From Rostratula benghalensis (taxonomy: Eukaryota; Chordata; Aves; Charadriiformes; Rostratulidae): a stretch of 64,000 bases of DNA. This document shows positions 1-24,500 of this stretch, in pieces. The stretch covers positions 990,035 to 1,054,034 of the forward strand of contig VXAI01000193.1 of the NCBI GenBank assembly GCA_013399305.1, in the 5' to 3' direction. The first letter of the stretch is position 1. Every line of letters begins with the position of its first letter. The translations under genes were made by a program, and so were the position numbers. The notes beneath the pieces are model-generated. The model had not been told where the DNA came from, made no database searches, and saw only the letters and a program-made list of their open reading frames with translations.

Positions 1-526
1 TACGGGAGGCAAAAAAAAAAAAACAAAGTGTTTGTTCAGGAGATTATTATGAATCTGTCCCTGAAAAAAAAAAAAATATAATTCCTCCTGGCTACTGAAT
101 CGTGAGAGAGCTGAACTGAATATAACAAGTATAGTCTCAAGCTTGTCTGCTCTCCCACCGAAAAAGAAGATAGGAATTTATAACCCTGATGCTGGTTAAG
201 GGTTTTTGGAAGAACACCTGACAGACGCAAGTTCGCATACAGTCCATGGCAACGCAGCAGTCTGAAAATGTAGAGCCCTGTAACTGACAGCTTTATCTAG
301 CTGGTTTTATTTAAATAATGACACAAACGGGAGAGCATTCAAGATAAGAGAACCTTATCTTATGATTCAGGCTGATAAAGTAAAATTTTAAATAATTCAG
401 TTTTTTTCTACAACTGATTTGTGTGTTTTTTTTGGCTGGCAAAAAAAAAAAAAATTTTATTGGCATTGCCCCCAAATCAGAAAAGCACTTGGGAGTTGTT
501 CTTTATTGCTGGCTACTCCTTGTTCT
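1..526 (-). other. SNX9: SNX9 3'UTR, visible part
   Basis: Non-coding sequence after the stop codon. AATAAA hexamers on this strand lie at 502-507 (only about 20 bases after the stop), 456-461 and 306-311. None has an obvious GU-rich element. Human SNX9 has a long 3'UTR, so the true end may lie beyond the window edge. Overwritten blocks at 12-22, 66-76 and 444-454 hide part of it. Confidence 0.6.
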
Positions 527-574
527 CTACATCACAGGAAAGCGGCTGAGTGCCTGCCTCAGCTTCTGTGCAAT
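527..574 (-). CDS. SNX9: SNX9 exon 18, C-terminus and stop
   Basis: Fifteen codons and TAG: IAQKLRQALSRFPVM. This is the conserved SNX9 C-terminal end of the BAR domain. Acceptor TTTCAG. The 3'UTR follows to the left. Confidence 0.96.
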   Translation of the reverse strand: MAQKLRQALSRFPVM

Positions 575-21500: not shown

Positions 21501-24500
21501 GCAACACAAATTGCTCACGAACTCTGAGGTGGCACATCCCATTAATCTTGTATGGGCAAACCATCCAGCACCTTTCATTTCCACTAAGAGCACAGTGTTA
21601 AAGACAGTTAAATTTTAAAGACCGGTAGGTCAAGAAGTTCAGGCCTTGCAAAACTGTCATTTGCCTGTACAACACCTCCAAAAATTGTATAGCTTTGGCA
21701 TGTATTTTCAGGCTGTGATGGATTTGTGTTCTCTGATCACACAAGGAGAATGCTGAGTTACAAATCCATTTCTAAAAAAAAAAAAAAACTGTAATATTTA
21801 CATTGCATATTTCAAGAAGGTTGAATGAAAAAAAAAAAACACATCTTGAAAAGTTCCAATTCTCTTCAATATATACACATTTGCCCCGCATTTTCCATTA
21901 CTTGTTAAGTGGTAACTTCATAGCAGCTGCACGAGAATTTCCACGCTGGACCCCCCCAGCCTCCGATGCCTCAGTCTCCTTGTAACCCAGGTAAGCTGGT
22001 GAAGCTGATTTTGGGTCATCCCAGTCATCATCCCAGTCATCGTCATCAGCAGCTGATGAAGTACAGGAGGGAGCAGGGAAAGGAAAAAGTTAAGTATTTT
22101 CTCTTTAAAAGCAGAAGCAGTTACCTCAGCCCTCATACATAAATGATCAACAAAAAAAAAAAGTTCAGCCTCCTATTTTATGATTCCTCCTCAGTTAGCA
22201 CCATCAAAAAAAAAAACAACCTGCAAAACACTACACTAGAAACCCAGGGAGTGCGAGGGAAAAAAAAAAAGAAGAAGGAAAAAAAGAANNNNNNNNNNNN
22301 NNNNNNNNNNNNNNNNNNNNNNNNNNNNNNNNNNNNNNNNNNNNNNNNNNNNNNNNNNNNNNNNNNNNNNNNNNNNNNNNNNNNNNNNNNNNNNNNNNNN
22401 NNNNNNNNNNNNNNNNNNNNNNNNNNNNNNNNNNNNNNNNNNNNNNNNNNNNNNNNNNNNNNNNNNNNNNNNNNNNNNNNNNNNNNNNNNNNNNNNNNNN
22501 NNNNNNNNNNNNNNNNNNNNNNNNNNNNNNNNNNNNNNNNNNNNNNNNNNNNNNNNNNNNNNNNNNNNNNNNNNNNNNNNNNNNNNNNNNNNNNNNNNNN
22601 NNNNNNNNNNNNNNNNNNNNNNNNNNNNNNNNNNNNNNNNNNNNNNNNNNNNNNNNNNNNNNNNNNNNNNNNNNNNNNNNNNNNNNNNNNNNNNNNNNNN
22701 NNNNNNNNNNNNNNNNNNNNNNNNNNNNNNNNNNNNNNNNNNNNNNNNNNNNNNNNNNNNNNNNNNNNNNNNNNNNNNNNNNNNNNNNNNNNNNNNNNNN
22801 NNNNNNNNNNNNNNNNNNNNNNNNNNNNNNNNNNNNNNNNNNNNNNNNATGTTGGTGTGTTAAGATGAATTCAACAGTGTTGCATATCCTTAGACTCCAC
22901 ATTAGCATCTCCTTTTAACTTAGGCCTTTACCACAAAAATGTAGAGAAGCATTCTGAAGGGCCAGTTACTTCCTAAAATTAAGGATTTAAGAGACTACTA
23001 CTTCACTGGCCGGAGGGCACAAAATCAAGGGTGTTCAAGTTCCAGTTATGCAAGCTGAACGACATGCCTGAGAATAGATCACGTATGCTCAAGACTTTGG
23101 CTCTCCAGATTTCCATACAAGTTTGAGGTGTCTGATAGGGTGGATCCAATTTAGTGAGTTTTAAAATTTTATTTAATAAAAACCCTAACCTATTATTTTA
23201 GTATTCAGTTTATCTACATGGCAACGTAGTGATTTTTTTTTTTAATAAGCCATGTTCTATAGTTATGAAAGATTAAACTCTTCTTACCTCTACTGTCTAC
23301 CTACTCTAATGTTTTCAAAAATAATGTTTTTAGCACACCTGGTCCTTGATATGCCTGTGGATGACCAAATGCTGCTGCTGCCTCCCAGTTATTTGAAGCA
23401 CTGTTCCTCTGGCCAGCCGCACTTTCAGGCTTCGTCGCCCAGCTGTCACCAGCATTTCCATTATCCCAGTTCCCAGACTTCCCAACGTTCCAGCTGGACC
23501 AAGGATCATTGGCATTGTTTGCCTACATGGCATAAGGACAAAAGGAAAGAAGAAATTGCTGAAGAAGTGAGTAATGACCATCTACTTTCATCTTGAAGTC
23601 TTTCATCTCTTCCTGATAGGCTGAGAGTTTGCATTCAGCACTGCACTTGTTCCATGGAGCAGCTGCCAAATCTTGCATTCCCAGCTACACGGCTCCTAAA
23701 TGCAGTAAGCACCTGGAAGAACTGCTCAGCTTTCCAACAGTGTGACACCAATACATACTAATAAGAACGTTACATCTCCTCAGGGAAATTAAACTATTTG
23801 TTCCAACAGTGTTGGGTAGCACTCTTACCCATGATAATAATTTTACTCCAACACTCTAAGTATGGTGCCTGTGAACTGTTAATTACATAAAGCAATGGAC
23901 TAATTAGAACATTTAAAACAAACTCAAAACCCAAGGATTAGGTTTTTTCCAAACGTTTATTTTGTCAAGCTCAGATTAATGGCCTTACTAAAAGCAAATC
24001 ATAAATTGCCCACCTACACCGTCACTGTTGGTGTGACAGTTAGGAAGTTAGGGCCAGCAATCTGCTCAGCTTCCCTGTCAGATCTTAATTAATTCTTGTA
24101 AAAGACAAGGGAAGGAAACATCTGCCAGGAAATAGGCTGGCATTTCCCTGTAGACATATTCTCTCGGCATAAGGTTCTGGTGAATGTAATCACACATACC
24201 CTTCTGCTGATGCTGCTGGGGAGGTGGAAACCTCCGTGAGAGTGTAGAACAGACACGTCTCCAACTACTGCATCAATTTGTCAAGTTAAATCTGTCAGTA
24301 AGTTAGATTAATAGCTTAGCATCCTGTTCAGCTCCTTCATTTTAACACTAGACTTTGAAAAAGCATTGACTAGTTAAGCACAGACTACTCCAGACACTCA
24401 GTGCAGAAGCTAGCTAACAGAAAGAAAAAAAACCCAAACCACACAAATCAAAATCCACACTCCCCCAGTGTAGAAGGAAGTAGAAGGGGAAGGAAAGTAA

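Follow-up and report, generated by a model that had tools for sequence, protein, structure and literature searches.

The window analyzed in this study, a stretch of 64,000 nucleotides (scaffold C402:990035-1054034) from an assembly of 1,086,608,298 bases in 1298 sequences (1.09 Gb), raises the question of why runs of A recur on a 54-base lattice throughout a contig of 22 kb that carries coding exons. Based on the results described below, these blocks likely represent a data error rather than biology, and it is fairly probable that the 11-base A blocks replaced true bases by way of a default letter written by assembly or finishing software. Coordinates of the relevant features are compiled in Table 1.

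A blocks on a 54-base lattice in the window contig

Within the contig at positions 1-22288, 153 runs of at least 11 A were counted, 149 of which cover residues 12-22 modulo 54, so that the modulo-54 tally proposed in the initial annotation displays a sharp peak at these residues. The lattice itself was observed directly, its first block being located at positions 12-22 and its last at 22260-22270, with zero phase steps across 22 kb. In a random control, in which 153 run starts were placed 200 times, the maximum at one phase was 11. The four off-lattice runs (7550-7561, 8462-8472, 9636-9646 and 17363-17376) represent natural A-runs. In total, 149/413 lattice sites (36%) are filled. These counts agree with the initial annotation, which had reported about 150 such runs left of the N gap, residues 12-22 occupied without drift, about a third of approximately 412 sites filled, and clustering of the filled ones. 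Among the 264 unfilled sites, the longest A-run does not exceed 6 of 11 bases and base composition is normal; partly restored sites were looked for among them and none were found. Sites are thus all-or-none.

The contig adjoins a run of 9,481 N (C402:980554-990034) directly in front of window position 1. Right of the 560-N gap, none of the eight runs of at least 11 A in the window lies on the lattice, and in 20 other stretches of C402 (200 kb requested, 9,692 N) one of 23 such runs was on the lattice, which corresponds to chance level. The comparison with sequence beyond the contig, likewise proposed at the outset, therefore located the lattice neither in the rest of the window nor in the fetched stretches of C402. 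Searches for a second copy of the locus with queries of 400 and 1,901 bases matched only the locus itself.

Table 1. Features of the window (window positions) and comb blocks on other scaffolds (scaffold positions where available).
Feature	Position	Strand	Details
Affected contig	1..22288	.	ungapped, flanked by two N runs
Gap	22289..22848	.	560 N, terminates lattice
Lattice of A blocks	12..22270	+	11 bases, 54n+12 to 54n+22
Filled site, SNX9 coding exon	2172..2182	-	IFFF vs KVKE in solved SNX9, ungapped
Filled site inside dispersed repeat 4028-4390	4116..4126	+	other copies: normal sequence, about equal length
Filled site, SNX9 coding exon	10380..10390	-	VFFFC vs VFSSS in solved SNX9, ungapped
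SNX9 exon segment	13203..13307	-	lattice sites 13242 and 13296 intact
SNX9 exon segment (aligned stretch)	16434..16601	-	lattice sites intact
Filled site, SNX9 coding exon	19344..19354	-	IFFFS vs IPSLP in solved SNX9, ungapped
SNX9 exon segment (aligned stretch)	19741..19878	-	lattice sites 19776 and 19830 intact
Filled site, SNX9 coding exon	20694..20704	-	IFFF vs KEKI in solved SNX9, ungapped
Comb block	C209:1355441-1376160		period 59, 21 A's; 196/264 sites filled in parts counted
Comb block	C371:1077117-1136120		period 56, 20 T's (reversed); 103/161 filled in two parts read
Comb block	C129 from 1527045		period 42, two intervals of 14 and 8 A's; 46/46 each in 2 kb read
Comb block	C22		period 39, 15 A's; 46/51 filled in 2 kb read
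Comb block	C90		period 36; 5/5 listed matches on phase
Comb block	C368		period 59; 17/18 listed matches on phase
Comb block	C389, first block		period 30; 50/51 listed matches; period kept over 35 kb
Comb block	C389, second block		period 41; 15/18 listed matches; other three at second phase
Comb block	C444		period 59; 8/8 listed matches on phase
Comb block	C456		period 46; 6/6 listed matches on phase
Comb block	C619		period 38; 7/8 listed matches within two bases, own step allowed for
Comb block	C644		period 46; 4/4 listed matches on phase

Replacement of SNX9 and repeat sequence at constant length

SNX9 is encoded on the minus strand of the contig, where translations of open stretches match the solved sorting nexin-9 chains 2rai and 3dyt, and four of eight open stretches match PX or BAR_3_WASP_bdg in a Pfam scan. 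The exons span window positions 2040-20771 and represent the PX and BAR/WASP-binding parts. Sixteen lattice sites are located wholly within SNX9-aligned segments; 11 of these are intact and five are filled. Four of the filled sites replace residues of coding exons, while the fifth (2064-2074) is probably intronic, as judged from its sequence context, because it lies just behind the GT that follows the exon. The stretch 527-769, which had been taken for the last SNX9 exon, showed no match.

Similar results were obtained for the dispersed repeat at 4028-4390, which we take to be CR1-like. With the A's masked, eight of nine alignments within C402 pair the site with a segment of the same length and the ninth is off by one base, flank identities of these nine alignments ranging from 0.42 to 0.92. 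With the A's kept, all six alignments put one-base gaps near the run, and 0/6 contain an 11-base gap. Moreover, at one site of the block on C22, a 15-base partner was found opposite 15 A's. Altogether, six sites were compared with outside sequence (four in SNX9, one in the repeat and one in C22), and normal bases stand opposite the A's in each case. Length-keeping replacement was thus observed at five sites of contig 1-22288 and at one of another contig; the remaining filled sites presumably replaced normal bases as well. An insertion of poly-A, as in a retroposon tail, does not explain these data, the A-runs being length-keeping replacements relative to SNX9 and the repeat copies. The earlier proposal that A acts as filler on the displayed strand is supported by the replacement of SNX9 exon and repeat bases by A, other combs consisting of A or T.

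Further combs in the assembly

Screening of the whole assembly for three 11-base A blocks spaced by 54 yielded 1593 matches in forward and 4331 in reverse orientation, many of which overlap one another. At least 13 blocks on 12 scaffolds were recognized as combs, this count being a lower bound that was derived from the matches listed (100/475, about 100/129 and 100/253 places). Each block features its own period in the range of 30-59; some combs appear as T runs, and two combs possess two runs per period. Beyond C402, the blocks on C209, C371, C129 and C22 were read as sequence, and the others were deduced from match coordinates and partly printed matches. A comparison with other contigs, which the initial annotation had suggested, accordingly added at least 12 further combs of A or T with other periods. 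Neither the period of 54 nor the run length of 11 is meaningful in itself, because other blocks have other values.

Matches on many other scaffolds resembled natural poly-A or were too few and were not counted, among them those on C2, C43, C79, C189, C218, C237, C242, C302, C372, C374, C384, C390, C391, C393, C397, C409, C413, C420, C449, C463, C548, C584, C639, C693, C734, C765, C858 and C936; C390 and C397 were read as sequence and contained no lattice. Regarding individual combs, each period within C129:1527001-1529000 is composed of 11 real bases, 14 A, 9 real bases and 8 A, so that filler A constitutes more than half of the bases. One unfilled site within C209:1355441-1357940 contains 10 A's of 21, located away from the interval edge and natural-looking.

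Block limits, orientation and phase steps

Limits of the blocks were observed directly. For the three blocks that were read to both ends (C402, C209 and C371), 6/6 ends coincide with N runs, and the block on C129 starts behind an N run, on the far side of which 27 bases were read. The comb on C371 is bounded by a single-N gap at C371:1077116; a single N is what some scaffolders insert where contigs overlap. Furthermore, phase steps were observed in C209 and C371 (one of +1 each), in C368 (-2) and in C619 (-4), the step in C368 being located between two neighbouring filled sites. Since blocks end at N runs and occur in both orientations, the stamp was applied to contigs ahead of scaffolding, and the phase steps indicate insertions or deletions of bases made after stamping. 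Hence the initial proposal of a stamp on the finished contig coordinates has to be modified: the idea that A was written as filler by a computational step is retained, but the phase steps of the other blocks and the reversal to T place it before the last edits and scaffolding. A run of exactly 5,000 N (C209:1357941-1362940) lies inside the comb, the phase behind it being equal to that in front of it; possibly this gap was already there before stamping, and no inference was rested on it.

Distribution of filled sites

In contig 1-22288, neighbouring sites agree in their filled state in 68.4% of cases vs 53.8% (s.d. 2.2) in shuffled data, a value reached by 0/2000 shuffles. Of the five parts tested, four showed clustering, the exception being C371b, where 33/38 sites are filled. 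Flanking sequences, for which neighbouring sites are not independent, showed an A content of 0.355 at filled vs 0.312 at unfilled sites of contig 1-22288, the corresponding T contents being 0.280 and 0.277. A-runs of at least five bases were found in 40% of the flanks of filled sites vs 22% of those of unfilled sites, T-runs of this length in 23% vs 20%, and C-runs in 9% vs 5%. Flank A content in C371 differs in the same direction, as does that in C209, there without significance. For flank runs of at least four bases, the other blocks pooled gave p values of 0.037 for A and 0.32 for T, and C209 alone 0.26. The A-rich flanks of filled sites would fit a decision taken at each site on a template in which A had already been entered, as restoration on such a template is expected to fail beside natural A-runs.

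A deterministic rule for filled sites was sought and none was found. Cross-validated prediction of the filled state reached AUC values of 0.71 for flank composition, 0.66 for dinucleotides, 0.63 for the bases themselves, 0.71 for the state of the neighbours and 0.76 for composition combined with neighbours. Among numerical relations between period and run length, the rule 2P-r=97 (97-base tiles with constant step) fits 54/11 and 59/21 but fails for 56/20 and later blocks, and linking 43 = 11+32 to a 64-bit word was discarded as numerology without support.

Proposed course of events and alternative explanations

Results of the analyses are in line with a software overwrite: phase is locked to contig coordinates (149/153 runs over 413 periods, and likewise in the other blocks save small steps), true sequence was replaced at kept length at the SNX9, repeat and C22 sites, and block limits are those of assembly units (6/6 ends). 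We infer a row-wise writer, a missing call and a restoration step. First, a program operating before scaffolding would have handled every affected contig in rows of constant length, 54 bases in this contig and 30 to 59 in the others. Where it obtained no call, in one or two column intervals that were the same in all rows, it would have written the letter of code 0, namely A. Subsequently, a read-based correction would have restored many blocks whole and added a few small indels. Finally, the contigs would have been placed in scaffolds with N gaps around them, and those inserted in reverse would display T runs. Intact sites may, instead of being restored, never have been stamped. The per-contig period and the two-interval masks are not accounted for by a row writer. 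Against restoration, base-by-base correction predicts partly restored sites, as which 0/264 unfilled sites qualify. Also at odds with the proposed course, clustering is missing in C371b, and C209 taken by itself shows no significant A-rich effect.

On balance, we favour, with some reservation, an assembly-software failure mode in which contigs are overwritten with A in a contig-specific comb, partly put back whole and then scaffolded, with coding exons being falsified. In the titles and abstract openings of the literature searched, neither a description of this failure mode or of such combs nor a program with such behaviour was found.

A narrower version of the software overwrite, which we regard as unlikely, assumes that the contigs first contained short N gaps at regular lattice positions, part of which a gap closer filled whole, the rest being turned to A by a later two-bit tool; conversion of N to A is a behaviour of some two-bit programs. 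All-or-none sites fit gaps closed as units, and the lower fill of 11-base runs (149/413) than of 20-base (103/161) and 21-base runs (196/264) fits closed gaps. However, the periodicity of the gaps is left unaccounted for, ordinary N runs stay N directly beside the blocks, and the -2 step in C368 is located between two neighbouring filled sites and not at a closed one.

It appears quite improbable that the deposited assembly is sound and that the A blocks were added later to the analyzed copy, either by file handling or deliberately. Periods of 30-59 with one or two arbitrary intervals do resemble freely chosen parameters, and the analysis rests on a single copy of the sequence, but ends at N runs, both orientations and indels acquired after stamping fit a step within the pipeline better. 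That the pattern is a natural repeat, or an array of A-tracts, with a period of 54 bases is extremely improbable even though natural A-runs occur, four of them off the lattice here, since 413 periods without drift, only two short pairs in a BLAST comparison of the contig with itself, replaced residues in conserved exons and abrupt stops at assembly gaps all speak against it, and biology is excluded for practical purposes. The initial annotation argued that a natural satellite would drift via indels; no phase step occurs in this contig, and its periods are dissimilar outside the A blocks.

Relation to known systems and consequences

Hard masking and N gaps likewise remove real bases from defined intervals without changing the length; in contrast, the filler here is a regular base, so that the loss is unmarked, and the intervals are periodic and contig-specific. 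Programs may produce a default base because code 0 equals A in two-bit storage or because a maximum is taken over an empty count table. Such programs likewise write A in whole runs where information is missing, whereas the titles and abstract openings covered contained no documented case of fixed columns within rows of 30 to 59 bases. Satellites and tandem arrays share the constant period over tens of kilobases, but here the blocks are separated by unique sequence, namely exons and introns of SNX9, and the phase holds for 22 kb without indel drift. A runs of 10 to 20 bases also occur as phased A-tracts, as nucleosome-related runs and in the poly-A tails of retroposons, none of which follows a 54-base lattice or overlies coding codons.

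The blocks have no biological value and are important as a data-quality warning, as they pass as ordinary bases in downstream tools. They introduce false Phe stretches into SNX9 exons and generate artificial A-tracts and regions of low complexity. Errors would follow in annotation, in conservation scores, in analyses of k-mers and repeats, and in sequence models that learn from the assembly. A modulo-P scan detects such blocks and is simple, cheap and applicable to other assemblies.

Additional observations in the window

On the minus strand of the affected contig, the open stretch 21898-22089 encodes an acidic DDDWDDDWDD motif without a Pfam match and presumably resembles the SNX9 linker. At window positions 58001-62000, G+C content amounts to 0.50-0.54 compared with approximately 0.40 in the surroundings, possibly reflecting a CpG-rich promoter.
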